From: Gaiellales bacterium
GTDB lineage: Bacteria > Actinomycetota > Thermoleophilia > Gaiellales > JAICJC01
Direction of reading: 5' to 3'
Assembly (NCBI GenBank): GCA_036273515.1
Contig: DASUHM010000075.1
Coordinates: 62,001 to 126,000, forward strand
DNA length: 64,000 nucleotides
Under the pieces are notes generated by a model. The model saw only the letters and a program-made list of their open reading frames with translations, did not search any database and was not told the DNA's origin. Below, in pieces: positions 28,061 to 53,918 of the stretch. The position numbers and the translations under genes were made by a program. Each line of letters begins with the position of its first letter. The first letter of the stretch is position 1.

Positions 28061-30367
28061 TTGAGCAAGCGCCTCGACGCCTACCGGCGCAAGCGCGACC
28101 CGGCCCGGACGCCGGAGCCGTTCACGGGCGCGGGCGGCGACGACAACCCGATCTTCGTCGTCCAGCGCCACGACGCCCGCCGGCTGCACTTCGACTTCAG
28201 GCTCGAGCGCGACGGCGCGCTCGCCAGCTGGGCCGTCCCCAAGGGCATCCCGCTGCGCAAGGGCCAGCGCCACCTGGCCGTGCACGTCGAGGATCACCCG
28301 CTCGACTACGCGAACTTCGAGGGCGAGATCCCGAAGGGCGAGTACGGCGGCGGGACGGTCGAGATCTGGGACCGCGGTCACTACGAGACGGTCGAGGAGA
28401 AGCGCGACGGCGGCCTCACGGTGCGCCTGCGCGGCGAGCGCCTGAACGGCCTCTGGACGCTCATCCCGGCCCGGATGGACGGCGACGAGAAGAACTGGCT
28501 GATCGTGCGCAAGGACGAGGGCGACCTGGCGGGCGACCCCGCCCAGCTGCGGCCGATGCTGGCCGTCGCCGCGACCGATCTCCCCACGAACGGGGAGTGG
28601 GTGTACGAGGTGAAGTGGGACGGCTACCGGGTGATCGCCGCGATCGAGGGCGGCGAGGCGACCCTGCGCAGCCGAAACGGCAACGACCTGACAGCCCGCT
28701 TCGCCCAGGTGGCCCGGGCGCTGCCCGGCGCCCTGCGCAGCGCCGACTGCGTGCTCGACGGCGAGGTGTGCGCGCTCGACGAGGCCGGGCGGCCGCGCTT
28801 CTCGCTGCTCCAGCACGGCGGCGGGGCGCTCGCGCTGTACGCCTTCGACCTGCTCATGCTCGACGGCCGCGACGTCACCGGGCTACCCCTCTCCGAGCGC
28901 AAGGAGCTCCTGGCCGAGACGCTGATCGCGGGCGAGACCATCCGCCTCTCGGTCGCGTTCGACGACGGCCCGGCGCTGTTCGAGCAGGCGAAGGCACATG
29001 GCCTCGAGGGCGTCCTCGCCAAGCGGCCCAACAGCCGCTACCTGCCCGGGCGGCGCAGCGAGGCGTGGGTGAAGGTGAAGACGCAGCAGCGCCAGGAGCT
29101 CGCGATCGCCGGCTACACGCGTGGGCAGGGCCGCCGCGACAACGCCTTCGGCGCGCTCGTGCTGGCCGTCGAGCGCGGCTCGGAGCTCGTGTGGGCGGGC
29201 AACTGCGGCACCGGGTTCGACGACGCCGAGCTCGACATGCTGATGGAGCGGCTCGCGCCGCTGCGGCGCAAGACCACCCCGCTCGCCGTCGAGCCGAAGA
29301 TGCCGCGCGTGCGCTCCGGCGACGTCACCTGGGTCGAGCCGAGGCTGGTGTGCGAGGTGGAGTTCCTGGAGTGGACGCGGGACGGGAGGCTGCGGGCGCC
29401 GTCGTACAAGGGCCTGCGGGACGACAAGGAGGTGAAGGACGTGCATCGCGAGCACCCTCGCAAGGAGCGGGCCGGATCGCCCGGGCGGCCGCTCGAGCTC
29501 TCGAACCTGGACAAGGTGTTCTGGCCGGATGAGGGGATCACGAAGGGCGACCTGATCGACTACTACCGGGCCGTCGCCGACGTGGCCGTGCCGCACCTGG
29601 AGGGGCGGCCGTTCACGATGAAGCGCTACCCGGACGGGATCGCCGCCAAGCCGTTCTTCCAGAAGAACGCGCCGTCGCACATGCCCGACTGGATCCCCAC
29701 GGCGGAATTCCCGGCCACGTCGCGCGAGACGCGGGAGAAGCGCATGATCCGCTACCCGCTCGTGAACGAGGAGTCGGCGCTCCTGTGGATGGCGAACATG
29801 GGCTGCATCGACCTGAACGCTTGGTGCTCGCGCATCGACAAGCCCGACCGGCCGGACTTCGCCCTGTTCGACCTCGACCCGACGCCGGAGGCCGGCTTCG
29901 CCGCGGCCGCCGAGGTGGCGCTCCTGATCCGCGACGCGCTCGCGGCCGTCGACCTGCGCGGCTACCCGAAGACGAGCGGCTCGGACGGCGTGCACGTGCT
30001 GGTGCCGCTGGCCCGGCGCTACGGCTACGACCAGACCCGCGCCGTCGTGCTCGCGATCTCGCGCGCGCTCGCCTCGATGCGGCCGGACCTGGTCACGACG
30101 GAGTGGTCGAAGGCGAAGCGCCACGGCGTGCTGATCGACGCGAACCAGAACGGCCCCGGCCGCACGATCGCGTTCGCGTACTCCGTGCGGCCGAAGCCCG
30201 GGGCGCCGGTCTCGACGCCGGTCACCTGGGACGAGCTGCGCGCCGGCGTCGACCCCGAGGCGTTCACCATGTCGGTGGTGCTCGACCGCCTCTCCCGCCA
30301 CGGCGACCTGCAGGCGCCGGTGCTCGAGGACCGCCAGGCGCTCGGCCCGGCGCTGCGCTCGCTCTAG
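28061..30367 (+). CDS. ligD: ATP-dependent DNA ligase LigD (NHEJ), three-domain
   Basis: 768 residues from TTG at 28061. Domain order is phosphoesterase, ligase, polymerase. The 3'-phosphoesterase (about 20-150) has NPIFVVQRHDARRLHFDFRLE. The ATP-dependent ligase (about 165-460) has the nucleotidyl Lys in YEVKWDGYRV, and GEVCALDE, EGVLAKRPNSRY and WVKVK. The primase-polymerase (about 480-765) has LDKVFWPDEGITKGDLIDYY and the metal pair in LFDLDPT. LigD seals double-strand breaks with Ku, but no ku gene is in the window. The order matches Pseudomonas-type LigD and differs from the mycobacterial one (POL first). Confidence 0.95.
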   Translation: MSKRLDAYRRKRDPARTPEPFTGAGGDDNPIFVVQRHDARRLHFDFRLERDGALASWAVPKGIPLRKGQRHLAVHVEDHPLDYANFEGEIPKGEYGGGTVEIWDRGHYETVEEKRDGGLTVRLRGERLNGLWTLIPARMDGDEKNWLIVRKDEGDLAGDPAQLRPMLAVAATDLPTNGEWVYEVKWDGYRVIAAIEGGEATLRSRNGNDLTARFAQVARALPGALRSADCVLDGEVCALDEAGRPRFSLLQHGGGALALYAFDLLMLDGRDVTGLPLSERKELLAETLIAGETIRLSVAFDDGPALFEQAKAHGLEGVLAKRPNSRYLPGRRSEAWVKVKTQQRQELAIAGYTRGQGRRDNAFGALVLAVERGSELVWAGNCGTGFDDAELDMLMERLAPLRRKTTPLAVEPKMPRVRSGDVTWVEPRLVCEVEFLEWTRDGRLRAPSYKGLRDDKEVKDVHREHPRKERAGSPGRPLELSNLDKVFWPDEGITKGDLIDYYRAVADVAVPHLEGRPFTMKRYPDGIAAKPFFQKNAPSHMPDWIPTAEFPATSRETREKRMIRYPLVNEESALLWMANMGCIDLNAWCSRIDKPDRPDFALFDLDPTPEAGFAAAAEVALLIRDALAAVDLRGYPKTSGSDGVHVLVPLARRYGYDQTRAVVLAISRALASMRPDLVTTEWSKAKRHGVLIDANQNGPGRTIAFAYSVRPKPGAPVSTPVTWDELRAGVDPEAFTMSVVLDRLSRHGDLQAPVLEDRQALGPALRSL

Positions 30368-30465: not shown

Positions 30466-30479
30466 CGAACATACGTTCG
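30466..30479. promoter_or_regulatory. LexA (SOS) box
   Basis: CGAACATACGTTCG is a perfect 5-4-5 palindrome and fits the actinobacterial/Gram-positive LexA consensus CGAAC-N4-GTTCG. The next gene on the plus strand is the cyclase fusion (start 30536), and ligD ends 99 bases upstream, so the fusion gene is the likely target. Direct proof needs LexA binding or DNA-damage expression data. Confidence 0.6.
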
Positions 30480-30535
30480 TCGAGGGATGGGAGCGAAAGG
30501 TGGGCCGAGAAGCGTCCGTGTGCCAGACTGCATCC

Positions 30536-33500
30536 ATGGTGGTGACCGAGGGAGAGCGCCGCGTCGTGGCGGTGCTGATGGCAGATGTGGCCGGCTCGAC
30601 GGCGATCGGCGAGCAGCTCGGTCCCGAGCGGTCCAAGTTCCTCTTCGACGAGGTCGTCCGGCTCATGGCCGAGCAGGTCGAGCGCTACGACGGCACGGTC
30701 GCCCAGCTGCTCGGCGACGGCCTGCTCGCGGTCTTCGGCGCCCCGGTCGCCCACGAGGACGACAGCGAGCGGGCGGTGCGCGCCGGGCTCGCGCTCCAGC
30801 GTGCGCTCGCCGCCTACTCGCGCGACGTCGACGAGGCCTACGGCATCGAGCTGCGTGCGCGCGTGGCCGTGAACACCGGCCCCGTCCTGATCACCGCCGA
30901 CGCCGATGGCGAGGAGCATTTCAACGCGCTCGGCGACACCGTGAACGTAACCGCGCGGCTGCAGGCGCTCGCCGGCGACTCCGATGTCATGCTCGGGCCC
31001 GACACGGCCGTCCAGGTACGCGACTGCTTCGAGCTCGAGGACCTCGGCCCGACCGAGCTGCGCGGGCGCTCGCGCCCGGTCGACCGCTACCGCGTCGTCA
31101 GCGAGCGCGACCGCGGCGACCGGCCCGCGGACGGCCCGCTCGTCGGCCGCGCCCACGAGCTGGCCGAGGTGCGGGACGCGTTCGAGCGGCTGGGCGACGG
31201 GATCGGCGTGATCGTCTCGCTGACCGGCGAGCCCGGTATCGGCAAATCGCGGCTCGCGGCCGAGGCCGTCGGCCCATACCGCGACCGGCTGAAGGTGCTC
31301 GTCGGCCGCGGCCTCTCATACACCCAGGGCTTCTCGTACTGGCCGATCCGCGACCTGCTGCGCGACTGGCTCGGCGCCTCGGCGACGACCAGCGAGGCGC
31401 GGATCCGCTTCGATCTCAAGGCCGCCCTGCACGAGCTCTACGGGCCCGGCGACGACCGCTATCCGTTCCTGGCCAACCTGCTCGGCCTCCAGGAGGCCGA
31501 CCGCCGCGCCGCTGCCGAGCTGCGCGAGCTGTCCCACGAGGCGCTTCACCGGCGCAGCCTCGAGGTGGTGGCAGACCTCCTGACGCGCCTGGCCGCGGAG
31601 CGGCCGCTCCTCGTCGTCTTCGAGGATCTGCACTGGGCCGACGAGCTGACGCTGCAGGCGGTGGAGAGCTTGCTCGAGCTGACGGAGGCCCAGGCGCTCG
31701 GCATCGCGATGCTCTACCGCAGCGAGCGCGAGCTCCCGTCCTGGGGCGTCGGCGAACGCGCCCGCCAGCACTACCCTCACCGTTATGTAGAGGTTGAGCT
31801 TCGGGCGCTCGCGGGCGACGCGACGCTCGAGCTGGCCCAGGCGCTCGCGGACGCCCCGCTGCCCGAGATGGTGGCCGACCTGATTTCCCAGCGGGCCGGC
31901 GGGAACCCGCTGTTCGTGAGCGAGGCGCTGCGCGATCTCGTCGAGCGGGGAGCGCTGACCCGGGAGAACGGCGGCGGCTGGAAGCTGGCCGTCGACCCGT
32001 CGCAGCTCGAGGTGCCCGCGCTCGTCCAGGGCGTGCTCCAGGCCCGGCTCGACCGGCTCGACGCCTCCGGGCGCGAGACCGTCGCCGTGGCGGCGGTGAT
32101 CGGGCGCCGGTTCGGCATGCCGCTGCTCGAGCGGGTGCTGCGCCCCGAGGTGCTGCCCGCGGCGCTGCTGGAGCTGCAGCGGCTCGACCTGATCGTCGAG
32201 GAGCGCCGCCGGCCCTACCCGGAGTACCGCTTCCGCCACGGCCTCGTGCAGGAGGCGGCGTATGCCAGCCTGACCGAGGCCGACCGGCAGGAGCTGCACC
32301 GCCGCGTCGGGGTGGGTCTCGAGGAGCTGGTCGGCGACGAGAAGAGCGGCTCGACGCTGGCGCTGCTCGCCCGGCACTTCAGCGCCGCCGACGACCCCGC
32401 CCGGGCGGCCGAGTACCTGATCCAGGCGGGCGACGACGCCCGCGCCATCTACGCGAACCAGGAGGCGATTCGCCACTACCGCCAGGCGCGCGAGTTCCTG
32501 GCCCGGATGGGCGACGACCGCCGCTCCCGCGAGACGCTCTTCAAGATCGCCCTCGTCCACCACCTGGCGTTCAACTTCGCCGAGGCCGAGCGGGCCTACG
32601 ACGAGGCCTTCGCCTGCAAGGTCATGCCGCTCGACCAGCCCGAGCCGACCGAGCGGATCGTCACGGCGGTGCTGCGCCCGGACTCGCTCGCGCCCGGACT
32701 CGAGTACGTGGCCGAGACGAGCGCGCTCACCGCGCACCTCTTCCGCGGCCTGCTCGTGATCGACCGCGACCTGAACGTGATGCCGTCGCTGGCCGAGAAC
32801 TTCCGCGTCTCCGGCGACGGGCTCACCTACCTCTTCCAGCTGCGCGAGAGCGCCTGCTGGAGCGACGGCGAGCCGGTGACGGCACACGACTTCGTCTACA
32901 CGTGGGAGCGGGCCCGGCAGCGCTCGACCGTGACCGCGTTCCTGCTGCAGGACGTCGATCAGGCGACCGCGCTCGACGATCACACGCTCGAGGTCGTGCT
33001 GCGCGAGCCGCGCAACTACTTCCCCTACATCCTGGCGTCGACCTATGCCTATCCGTGGCCGCGCCACCTGTGCGAGACGCAGGGCGAGGACTGGCACCGG
33101 CAGCAGCCGCTCGTGTCGAACGGGCCGTTCCTGCTCGAGAGCATCGACGACGACAGCCTGCGGATGGTCGCGAACCCGCGCTGGACCGGCCGCCGCGGCA
33201 ACCTGCGTGAGATCGAGGTCGACTTCCGCATGCACGGCAGGGCCGAGGCCGTGAACGAGCTGTGGGGCTCCGGGAGGCTCGACGTGCTCTCGACGCCGTT
33301 CGTGCCCGACCACGTCGACGACGCCGACGACGCGTGCACCGATCTCGCCCCCCGGCTGGGCACGGCGATCATCGGCTTTCGCACCGACCGCGAGGTGTTC
33401 GCGGACGTGCGGGTGCGCCGCGCGGTGGCCGCGGCGCTCGCTCCTGTCGCGCTGGGGTTCGCCGACGTCGGCCTGATGGGCCGCGCCGCCGACGGCGGCG

Positions 33501-34105
33501 GCCTGCTGCCGCCGGCGATGCCCGGGCACGACCACCACGTCTCGACGCCGCTCGACCTCGATGCGGCGCGCGCCCTGCTGGCCGAGGCGGGCCATCGCGG
33601 AGGCGCCGGCCTGCCGCGCCTGCAGATGCTCGTCTCGAAGGGCTTCGAGGTGCTGCTGGGCGCGATCGAGACCGCTCTCGCCGAGATCGGGCTCGAGGTC
33701 GAGTTCATCATCAGCCAGCGCGGGTCGCGGGCCTCGGAGATCCCGGCCGACCTGTGGCTGAGCGCGTGGCTGGCCGACTACCCCGACCCCGACGGGTTCT
33801 TCCGCGGGCTGCTCGCCGACCCGTGCGATCCGGTCACCGAGCCGGAGATGACGCGCGAGCTCGTCGACCTGATCGACCGCGGCCGGGGGTCGCGCAACCA
33901 GGACGAGCGGCTCGAGCTGTACGGCCGTGTCGACCGGCTGCTCGTCTCGGAGTGGGTCGTGCTCGTGCCCCTGGCCTACCTGCGCACCACCGTCCTGCGG
34001 CGGCCGTGGGTGCACGGCCTGTGGGCGAACGCGCTCACGCCGTTCCGGTTCGACGCGGTGATCGTCGACCGCGAGCACGCGAAGCAGCCGGGCGCCGCCG
34101 GGTGA
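30536..34105 (+). CDS. Adenylate cyclase - AAA ATPase - solute-binding domain fusion
   Basis: About 1,189 residues from ATG at 30536 (CAGACT ends 6 bases before; GTG at 30500 is the alternative). The class III cyclase (about 5-185) has metal Asp residues in LMADVAGST and LLGDGLLAVFGAP and catalytic NVTARLQ. A STAND/AAA-type ATPase follows (about 200-480), with Walker A GEPGIGKSRL near 230 and Walker B LLVVFEDLHWADE near 360. A helical TPR-like part covers about 480-700. The C-terminal 480 residues (about 707-1185) match SBP_bac_5 oligopeptide-binding proteins: LRESACWSDGEPVTAHDFVYTWERA and DVRVRRAVAAAL. There is no signal peptide, so this binding domain should work inside the cell as a ligand sensor. 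It overlaps the next gene by 4 bases. Confidence 0.9.
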   Translation: MVVTEGERRVVAVLMADVAGSTAIGEQLGPERSKFLFDEVVRLMAEQVERYDGTVAQLLGDGLLAVFGAPVAHEDDSERAVRAGLALQRALAAYSRDVDEAYGIELRARVAVNTGPVLITADADGEEHFNALGDTVNVTARLQALAGDSDVMLGPDTAVQVRDCFELEDLGPTELRGRSRPVDRYRVVSERDRGDRPADGPLVGRAHELAEVRDAFERLGDGIGVIVSLTGEPGIGKSRLAAEAVGPYRDRLKVLVGRGLSYTQGFSYWPIRDLLRDWLGASATTSEARIRFDLKAALHELYGPGDDRYPFLANLLGLQEADRRAAAELRELSHEALHRRSLEVVADLLTRLAAERPLLVVFEDLHWADELTLQAVESLLELTEAQALGIAMLYRSERELPSWGVGERARQHYPHRYVEVELRALAGDATLELAQALADAPLPEMVADLISQRAGGNPLFVSEALRDLVERGALTRENGGGWKLAVDPSQLEVPALVQGVLQARLDRLDASGRETVAVAAVIGRRFGMPLLERVLRPEVLPAALLELQRLDLIVEERRRPYPEYRFRHGLVQEAAYASLTEADRQELHRRVGVGLEELVGDEKSGSTLALLARHFSAADDPARAAEYLIQAGDDARAIYANQEAIRHYRQAREFLARMGDDRRSRETLFKIALVHHLAFNFAEAERAYDEAFACKVMPLDQPEPTERIVTAVLRPDSLAPGLEYVAETSALTAHLFRGLLVIDRDLNVMPSLAENFRVSGDGLTYLFQLRESACWSDGEPVTAHDFVYTWERARQRSTVTAFLLQDVDQATALDDHTLEVVLREPRNYFPYILASTYAYPWPRHLCETQGEDWHRQQPLVSNGPFLLESIDDDSLRMVANPRWTGRRGNLREIEVDFRMHGRAEAVNELWGSGRLDVLSTPFVPDHVDDADDACTDLAPRLGTAIIGFRTDREVFADVRVRRAVAAALAPVALGFADVGLMGRAADGGGLLPPAMPGHDHHVSTPLDLDAARALLAEAGHRGGAGLPRLQMLVSKGFEVLLGAIETALAEIGLEVEFIISQRGSRASEIPADLWLSAWLADYPDPDGFFRGLLADPCDPVTEPEMTRELVDLIDRGRGSRNQDERLELYGRVDRLLVSEWVVLVPLAYLRTTVLRRPWVHGLWANALTPFRFDAVIVDREHAKQPGAAG

Positions 34106-35049
34106 GCTCCCCCACCGGGCCGGCGCCTGCGCCGGCGGTGTCCGCGGCACGCCCGCCCGCGGCCGAGCTGATCGCCGCGTTCGCGGCGATCTACCTGGTC
34201 TGGGGATCGACGTTCCTGGCGATCCGCTACGCCGTCGAAACGATCCCGCCGTTCGCGATGATGGCCGGCCGGTGCCTGCTCGGAGGCGGGATCCTGCTCG
34301 CGTTCGGCCTCGTCCGCGAGCGCGATCTCACGTGGCCGACGCGGAGGGAGTGGGGCGGTGCGGTCGTGATCGGCGTGCTGCTCTTCGTCGGCTGTCACGG
34401 CGTGCTCGCATACGCCGAGGAGAAGGTGCCGTCGGGCATCGCCGCGCTCTGCCTGGCCACGATCCCGCTGTTCGTCCCGCTGCTCGCATGGACGCTGCCG
34501 GACGGGCGGCCGCCGTCGCGGCGGCGGGTGGGGGCGTTCGTCGTCGGGTTCGCCGGCGTGGCGCTGCTGGTCGTCTCGCAGGGCACGAGCGGCGGCCTGC
34601 ACCCGGCCGACGCGTTCCTGCTGGTCGGAAGCGCGCTCTCCTGGGCGGCCGGGACGGTCGCCACCCGGGTCGTGCCCGTGCCGCGCTCGCCGGTGGTCGG
34701 CGCGGCGATGCCGCTGCTCGCCGGCGGCGTCATCCTGACCGCGGTCGCCGCCGGATCGGGCGAGCTCTCGTCGCTCCACCTCGCCGACATCTCGGAGCGC
34801 TCGATCGGCGGGCTCGCCTATCTCGTCGTCTTCGGCACCGTGCTCACGTTCTCGGCCTACGTGTGGCTGCTGCGCGTCGTCGCCCCGGCCCGTGTCGCCA
34901 CGTATGCCTTCGTGAACCCGGCGGTCGCGGTGGTGCTGGGGTGGGCGGTCGCCGGTGAGTCGCTCACCGCGGGCGCCGTCGTCGCGAGCGCCGTGATCGT
35001 CGCCGCCGTTGCGGTTGCGGTCTCCGAGCGCGAGCGCGCCCCGGCCTGA
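34102..35049 (+). CDS. EamA/DMT-family exporter
   Basis: 315 residues from GTG at 34102, overlapping the stop of the cyclase fusion (GTGA). Ten hydrophobic helices form two EamA repeats. IYLVWGSTFLAIRYAVETIPPF is the typical first helix, and a second similar set begins near ADAFLLVGSALSWAAGTVATR. Such carriers export amino acids, purines or other metabolites. Coupling to the sensor-like fusion suggests the pump may export what the fused binding domain detects; that is inference. Confidence 0.88.
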   Translation: MSSPTGPAPAPAVSAARPPAAELIAAFAAIYLVWGSTFLAIRYAVETIPPFAMMAGRCLLGGGILLAFGLVRERDLTWPTRREWGGAVVIGVLLFVGCHGVLAYAEEKVPSGIAALCLATIPLFVPLLAWTLPDGRPPSRRRVGAFVVGFAGVALLVVSQGTSGGLHPADAFLLVGSALSWAAGTVATRVVPVPRSPVVGAAMPLLAGGVILTAVAAGSGELSSLHLADISERSIGGLAYLVVFGTVLTFSAYVWLLRVVAPARVATYAFVNPAVAVVLGWAVAGESLTAGAVVASAVIVAAVAVAVSERERAPA

Positions 35050-41635: not shown

Positions 41636-42068
41636 AGTGAGAGGCGGAGCGCTCGGACGCGCGCAGCCGCTCGGCCATCGTCTGCAGCAGCGCGATCGCG
41701 ATCTTCGGCTCGTCCTGAACCGTCTTCAGGAAGGCGTTTCGGCCGAGCAGCATCGCGAACACATCCGTCTGCGCCTCGACGGTCGCGGCCCTCGGTGCGG
41801 CGTCGATCAACGCCATCTCGCCGAACCAGTCGCCGGCGCCGAGGCGCACCCCGCGCTTGCCCGGCAGCTTCACCAGGGCGGTGCCGTCGAGGATGACGTA
41901 GAAGCTGTCGCCGCGGTCGCCCGCGCGGACGATCGGGGTGAAGCGCGCATATCGGCGCGTCTTGGCCAGCTTCGCGATCTTGTTCACCTGGCGCTTGGAG
42001 AGGCCGGCGAAGAGCGGGATCTCCGCAAGCACGTCGGCCCAGCCACGGCCCATCGAATCGGTCGGCAT
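41634..42068 (-). CDS. Single cyclic-nucleotide-binding domain protein
   Basis: 144 residues from ATG at 42068. IPLFAGLSKRQVNKIAKLA is the usual entry helix of CNB domains. The beta roll follows, with GDSFYVILDGTALV and the phosphate-binding cassette FGEMALIDAAPRAATV, where Glu and Arg would hold the cyclic phosphate and ribose. No DNA-binding or enzyme domain is attached, so it should act by binding a partner. Ligand binding looks intact. The cyclase fusion 8 kb away is a possible source of signal (inference). Confidence 0.85.
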   Translation of the reverse strand: MPTDSMGRGWADVLAEIPLFAGLSKRQVNKIAKLAKTRRYARFTPIVRAGDRGDSFYVILDGTALVKLPGKRGVRLGAGDWFGEMALIDAAPRAATVEAQTDVFAMLLGRNAFLKTVQDEPKIAIALLQTMAERLRASERSASH

Positions 42069-53276: not shown

Positions 53277-53918
53277 CTATCCCTTTCCCACGCCGTAGAC
53301 GACCAGCCGGCCGCGGCTGACCTCGACCTGGCCGCGCGCCCGCATCTCGCGCAGGACGCGACTCACCGTCAGGCGGGACGTGCCGGCCAGGCTGGCCAGA
53401 TCCTCCTGCGTGAGCGGGATCGTGGCCGTGCCGGACTCGTCGCGGTAGCGGTCGGCCAGCGTCTCGATGAACGACGCCACCCGCCGTGGCGCCGGCGTGT
53501 AGAGCGCGTCGACGAGCCGCTCGGTCATCTCGGCCACCCGGTCGGCCAGGATCTGCACGAGCAGCGCGTCGACGGCGGGGTGCTCGCGCCTCAGGCGGTC
53601 GAACGTCTCGCGGTTGAGCGAGTAGGTCTCGGTGGCGGCGAGCGCCTGGATCGTCGCGCTGCGCATGCGCGCTTCGCGCAGGAGGCCCATCTCGCCGACG
53701 ACGCCGCCGGGGCCGACGATGGCGAGCGTCGCCATGTCGCCGAGCGGGGTGAGCACGCGGATGGCGAGAGACCCCGTCTGGACGAGGTGCATCGTGTCGG
53801 CCGGGTCGTCGCGATGCACCACGACCTCACCGCGCTGGAACCGGCGCCGGCGGGCCAGCAGCAGCACCTGGCGCTTCTCGTCTTCGGAGAGCGGCGAAAG
53901 GATCGGCCAGTCGGGCAC
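53277..53918 (-). CDS. Crp/Fnr-family transcriptional regulator
   Basis: 213 residues from GTG at 53918 with GGAGGAGG at good spacing. The cyclic-nucleotide-binding-like domain (about 5-120) contains DTMHLVQTGSLAIRV and GVVGEMGLLREARMRSATIQAL, with the Arg-Ser pair of cAMP-binding members. The HTH_Crp domain (about 145-210) has LTQEDLASLAGTSRLTVSRVLREM. It is followed by a GNAT gene in the same transcript. GTGTA-N8-TACAC just upstream may be its own site. Confidence 0.9.
   Translation of the reverse strand: MPDWPILSPLSEDEKRQVLLLARRRRFQRGEVVVHRDDPADTMHLVQTGSLAIRVLTPLGDMATLAIVGPGGVVGEMGLLREARMRSATIQALAATETYSLNRETFDRLRREHPAVDALLVQILADRVAEMTERLVDALYTPAPRRVASFIETLADRYRDESGTATIPLTQEDLASLAGTSRLTVSRVLREMRARGQVEVSRGRLVVYGVGKG

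Follow-up and report, generated by a model that had tools for sequence, protein, structure and literature searches.

Soluble class III cyclases are numerous in Actinomycetota, and the signals that control them are mostly unknown; the gene examined here carries as its likely sensor a member of a domain family that can be screened for ligands with standard binding assays. A class III cyclase and an ATPase are followed in it by a domain of the type that delivers peptides to transporters, which raises the question of whether these parts belong to one genuine protein, how widely and from what origin such a protein is distributed, and whether the binding domain might act inside the cell as a sensor of the cyclase.

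One open reading frame, four domains

The window, i.e. the whole stretch of 64,000 nucleotides that was analysed, contains the gene as one intact open reading frame of 1189 codons, in which Pfam profiles recognized, in this order, a class III cyclase, an AAA_16 ATPase, a weak TPR match and an SBP_bac_5 domain, all above cut-off with the exception of the TPR. The features are as follows.

30536..34105, + strand: fused cyclase-AAA-TPR-SBP gene (open reading frame translation; start from orthologue alignment)
30560..31075, + strand: class III nucleotide cyclase domain, residues 9-180 (PF00211 Guanylate_cyc, 58.9 bits against a cut-off of 21.9, E 6.5e-16; conserved residues; PDB alignments)
31136..31690, + strand: AAA_16 / STAND-type ATPase, residues 201-385 (PF13191, 82.6 bits against a cut-off of 32.6, E 6.2e-23; invariant Lys237 and Asp364)
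31736..32614, + strand: helical and TPR-like linker, residues about 401-693 (weak TPR_12; helices in the predicted model; peptide patterns)
32642..34075, + strand: complete OppA-type SBP_bac_5 domain, residues about 703-1180 (PF00496, 187 bits against a cut-off of 32.4, E 6.8e-55 across 346 residues; OppA match; predicted model and its TM score)
32777-33814, + strand: Pfam core of SBP_bac_5, residues 748-1093 (PF00496)
33776..33778, + strand: codon of Asp1081, the column of OppA Asp419 (OppA alignment; 29-sequence alignment)
34102..35049, + strand: EamA-family exporter gene, its GTG start overlapping the TGA stop of the fused gene; an accessory, unconserved neighbour

The ATG at 30536 is the preferred start, as it is better backed by alignment with the N-termini of orthologues, the alternative being a GTG at 30500 that would give 1201 residues; the stop is the TGA at 34103-34105. 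The start at 30466 given in the preliminary description lies out of frame and was a minor error. Its fused architecture of cyclase, ATPase, helical part and binding domain is otherwise borne out by the single reading frame, the Pfam matches and the orthologues described below, and the cyclase and ATPase motifs that it quoted are present in the sequence. None of the named NCBIfam families reached its curated cut-off (best TIGR03903, 256.6 bits against 705.75; OppA, 100.4 against 947).

A cytosolic location, as had been claimed from the lack of a signal peptide, is upheld. The N-terminus of the protein is the cyclase, no signal peptide or lipobox of the kind typical of the SBPs of ABC transporters is present, and a 19-residue hydropathy scan found no hydrophobic segment or signal at the N-terminus or ahead of the SBP part, the highest window (1.86, residues 963-981) falling inside the SBP_bac_5 part.

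The ATPase has both nucleotide-binding motifs, Walker A (GEPGIGKS, including Lys237) and Walker B (VFEDLHW), with Lys237 and the Walker B Asp364 invariant in 29/29 sequences. The TPR_12 match in the linker is weak (7.8e-5, below cut-off), and the same region carries the family signature LFK[IML]AL.

Distribution and origin of the fusion

The window genome is in draft form (98 contigs), so that an artefact of assembly or annotation, by which separate cyclase and SBP genes were merged, had to be considered. Full-length matches to the whole protein were obtained in 11 of the 61 genomes of relatives (own genome counted), and among the 399 genomes of the class there were 26 matches, 25 of them full-length within one open reading frame and one cut by a contig end, all belonging to one order. 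The survey of related genomes that the preliminary description had proposed thus shows that the one-frame fusion recurs. A further scan of named genomes, which used linker peptides as patterns and therefore favours fused proteins by design, yielded 33 loci, and nearly all the complete ones encode cyclase, ATPase and SBP in a single frame, that of the isolate Pedococcus cremeus CGMCC 1.6963 included; the fusion thus extends to other families of the phylum. As these orthologues, with identities of 36-88%, occur in independent genomes, share the join and have a conserved linker, and as GC3 is even through the junction (0.90-0.99 per 100-codon stretch, no N, no break near 32650), an assembly join near that position is ruled out and we assign the artefact a practically negligible probability.

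A less biased test was a profile search with the SBP part alone across 396 genomes of the phylum. Hits of at least 301 bits lay in long fused frames of about 1,100-1,600 residues or were cut by contig ends; below 301 bits there was a gap, and hits of 276 bits or less were stand-alone single-domain proteins of about 530-615 amino acids, in nearly all of which a lipoprotein signal is visible.

In the tree of SBP domains the fused proteins form one side of a branch with a support of 99, their nearest other sequences being OppA and one relative from the class, and the tree of the N-terminal 600 residues places them likewise on one side of a branch (support 88). Both trees, like every other analysis, divide them into the same two clades, the window gene belonging to clade 1. 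The simplest reading of these trees is a single ancient fusion followed mainly by vertical inheritance, with some transfer (Pedococcus and metagenome-assembled genomes labelled Chloroflexi and Acidobacteriota). Two members (L086 and L063) come from assemblies labelled Acidobacteriota and Chloroflexi, in which binning errors are possible; misbinning is likely for L086, since the SBP tree groups it with close sequences from Actinomycetota.

Counted from where the match begins, the closest unfused cyclase-ATPases (L020 and L021) are about 657 residues long and stop just short of the SBP join. No split pair of cyclase and SBP genes was found within 1.5 kb flanks of unfused cyclases, and a search of plasmids matched the cyclase-ATPase half alone, the fusion not being found. 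One locus (L068:277-9899) contains three tandem cyclase-ATPase genes, the first with an SBP domain and the other two with a zinc ribbon and TPR; a zinc-ribbon cyclase gene also lies near the fused gene in L063 and L074, on the opposite strand in the latter.

A complete OppA-type binding domain

The preliminary description had assigned the roughly 480 C-terminal residues to SBP_bac_5, and both the profile search and structure prediction confirmed this identity. By sequence the nearest solved structure is OppA (residues 723-1162, E 1.4e-26). An AlphaFold model of the isolated domain (pLDDT 90.1, pTM 0.87) found its best fold matches in DppE (with murein tripeptide), OppA and MppA, with TM scores mostly of about 0.8 over near-full length of both partners; against DppE (8ay0_B) the scores were 0.83/0.83 over 519 columns, both lobes being complete in the predicted model.

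Asp1081 aligns with OppA Asp419, the ligand of the peptide amino group. All 12 sequences of clade 1 have Asp in this column, and all 17 of clade 2 have Gly; as Asp is common there in the ordinary SBPs of the window genome too, it fits the binding of a peptide or amine without proving it. OppA Arg413, which binds a tripeptide carboxylate, corresponds to Leu1075, a difference that counts against the sensor reading. To judge from these sequences, the two clades probably differ in ligand.

A comparison of the window gene with its 88%-identical relative gave a dN/dS of 0.19 for the whole gene, 0.06 for the cyclase, 0.11 for the AAA domain and 0.31 for the SBP domain, so that all domains are under purifying selection, the SBP domain least; the faster divergence of the latter would fit a change of ligand as well as a weaker constraint. 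The SBP-like domain might instead be a module for protein-protein interaction or dimerisation that binds no small ligand, the cyclase being controlled by partner proteins. Three observations would suit such a module: its residues 881-1060 evolve fastest (dN/dS 0.33), the amine-binding Asp is missing from clade 2, and no linked transporter or catabolic gene hints at a ligand. We nevertheless judge it unlikely, because the full two-lobe fold is retained in the predicted model, the N-lobe motif WSDG is invariant (29/29), Asp1081 is fixed within clade 1, and the N-lobe of clade 2 is highly conserved (0.92).

An intact cyclase with non-canonical specificity residues

In the 29-sequence alignment the metal-binding residues Asp17 and Asp61 of the cyclase, together with Asn137, are each invariant (29/29), and Arg141 is present in 28/29, in agreement with the earlier claim of an intact class III cyclase. 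The further claim that its output is cAMP did not stand in that form. The specificity positions are Gln57 and Asn130 in clade 1, and Asp57 with Ala, Gly or Thr, mostly Ala, in clade 2, so that the canonical adenylyl cyclase pair, Lys with Asp or Thr, was found in neither clade; in PDB alignments the pair is Lys/Thr in CyaB, and the first position is Glu in 2w01. With Gln57/Asn130 in place of Lys/Asp, these residues do not settle whether cAMP or cGMP is the product. Since Rv0386 of Mycobacterium tuberculosis, an adenylyl cyclase that also shows some guanylyl activity, carries a Gln-Asn pair, the product may still be cAMP.

The window genome encodes 13 class III cyclases and 13 proteins with cNMP-binding domains, so candidate effectors exist. 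Two cNMP-binding domains lie within the window, at 41715-41957 (- strand) and 53580-53849 (- strand), about 8 and 20 kb from the cyclase, and are possible effectors.

Gene neighbourhood

The preliminary description had linked the fused gene to the adjoining EamA gene as a possible exporter of the sensed compound. The overlap of the EamA start with the stop of the fused gene (GTGA) was confirmed in the window genome and in the 88%-identical relative (G002), and in E. coli the sugar exporter gene setA likewise lies near sgrR. These two genomes are nevertheless the only ones in which EamA adjoins the fused gene: it is missing beside all other members, including a genome of the same genus (G001) in which the next gene is a GMC oxidoreductase, and neighbours elsewhere are unrelated. 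EamA is thus ruled out as a conserved partner and stands outside the conserved system; export of the sensed compound is probably not its general role, and a functional pair of sensor and exporter appears very improbable.

The neighbours are housekeeping genes in some clade 1 genera (a class II tRNA synthetase, dus, type III pantothenate kinase, DUF2469, a folP-like/pterin-binding enzyme and ftsH), and in parts of clade 2 they are cytochrome b/Rieske and UbiD genes, or ATP-sulfurylase and TauE genes. No conserved transporter or operon neighbour was found among the neighbourhoods examined. Directly upstream of the fused gene in the window (28061-30367, + strand) is a gene for a LigD-type multifunctional DNA ligase with 3'-phosphoesterase, ligase and primase-polymerase domains, and a related gene is also found upstream in the 88%-identical relative (L054).

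The domain might take peptides or other solutes delivered by Opp/Dpp importers, in which case the protein would report on imported nutrients rather than on an endogenous compound; this variant of the main explanation departs from it only as to where the ligand comes from. Its kinship with OppA and the 17 further SBP_bac_5 proteins of the window genome speak for such a supply, but among the neighbours named by Pfam no ABC permease or ATPase and no other SBP gene was identified beside the members examined, and we consider this variant rather doubtful. The window genome also has a pair of closely related genes for SBP_bac_5 lipoproteins situated near one another (L093, G000:C7:49600-56500).

Proposed mechanism

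The protein is, with reasonable likelihood, a cytosolic and probably ligand-gated class III nucleotide cyclase of the STAND type. To judge from its domains, what it senses is probably a cytoplasmic small molecule; what we infer here comprises ligand binding, the coupling between domains, which way the effect runs and which product is made. The role of intracellular ligand sensor suggested in the preliminary description agrees with the conserved fused architecture, with a location in the cytosol and with the assignment to SBP_bac_5, and sensing is the best reading of the domain, whereas control of the cyclase by a ligand is a step that we infer.

In MalT-like STAND proteins, inducer bound to the sensor and arm converts the closed state with ADP into an open state with ATP that assembles (PMC4381067). 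The order cyclase, ATPase, helical arm and SBP domain fits a design in which closure of the SBP domain frees the ATPase and unites the cyclase domains. A cytosolic ligand would close the two SBP lobes, the likeliest one in clade 1, given its conserved amine-binding Asp, being a peptide or some other molecule that bears a free amino group. Lobe closure would then be relayed through the helical arm to the ATPase, whose nucleotide state would change and which would oligomerise as in MalT. In the full-length model the linker is helical and the domain packing uncertain (pTM 0.63), so that the relay between domains is hypothetical. Since class III active sites arise at the dimer interface, oligomerisation might bring two cyclase domains together, and the cyclic nucleotide made would be read by some of the 13 cNMP-binding-domain proteins of the genome. 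In its most specific form, the proposal is of an ancient, conserved Actinomycetota family in which an internalised OppA fold would serve as a cytosolic peptide or amine sensor directly gating cyclic nucleotide synthesis via a STAND switch, the clades sensing different ligands; we advance this version tentatively, at somewhat below an even chance.

Comparison with known systems

Many genomes and plasmids encode proteins that match the N-terminal 660 residues at 32-40% identity, namely class III cyclase-AAA/STAND-TPR proteins of the M. tuberculosis Rv0386 type, but at the C-terminus those proteins have TPR or nothing where the fused protein has a whole SBP_bac_5 domain. With OppA, DppE and MppA (SBP_bac_5, cluster C) the family shares the profile, the predicted fold (TM 0.83) and, in clade 1, the amine-binding Asp; it differs from them in the absence of a signal peptide and lipobox, in the attachment to a cytosolic enzyme and in that no ABC permease genes were identified nearby.

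A presumed intracellular sensor of the SBP_bac_5 type is also found in SgrR, DsvR and YbaE, where it is joined to an HTH and the output is a DNA-binding domain, whereas here it is a cyclase, and no HTH was detected in the fused protein with Pfam. The E. coli sgrR locus, encoding an SBP_bac_5 regulator with setA nearby, is one precedent, and DsvR is a cytosolic SBP_bac_5 regulator as well (PMC13060122); a survey also remarks in general terms that signalling proteins of the cytosol can have SBP Pfam families as their sensor domains (PMC9602780). The use of SBP_bac_5 as a cytosolic sensor is therefore not new in principle; the earlier idea of a normally extracellular binding domain turned intracellular is sustained as to architecture. 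A common origin with SgrR is unsupported by a first tree of SBP domains: although only 36% of the columns are filled, it places the SBP parts of SgrR and YbaE apart from the fused clade, which points to independent invention.

MalT and other STAND regulators are expected to share the principle of a C-terminal sensor, a helical arm, an ATPase switch and a separate output. In MalT the sensor is a TPR superhelix and the output a LuxR-type HTH, in contrast to the SBP sensor and cyclase output of the fused protein. The natriuretic peptide receptor guanylyl cyclases of animals also combine a class III cyclase with a sensor of the periplasmic-binding-like kind, and the cyclase domain of the ANP receptor is among the PDB matches of the cyclase studied here; those receptors differ from it in having a binding fold of type I, an extracellular location, a membrane helix and a kinase-homology linker.

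The new part is the join itself of a cyclase-ATPase to SBP_bac_5, a description of which was not found in the open-access full-text literature; both halves are known separately, cyclase-ATPases being common and intracellular SBP_bac_5 domains occurring in SgrR and DsvR. The Pedococcus cremeus isolate offers an accessible case. If the proposed role is true, the family would constitute, after SgrR, a second and apparently independent case in which a binding domain of the peptide-transport type has become a cytosolic sensor, here with a second messenger as output.
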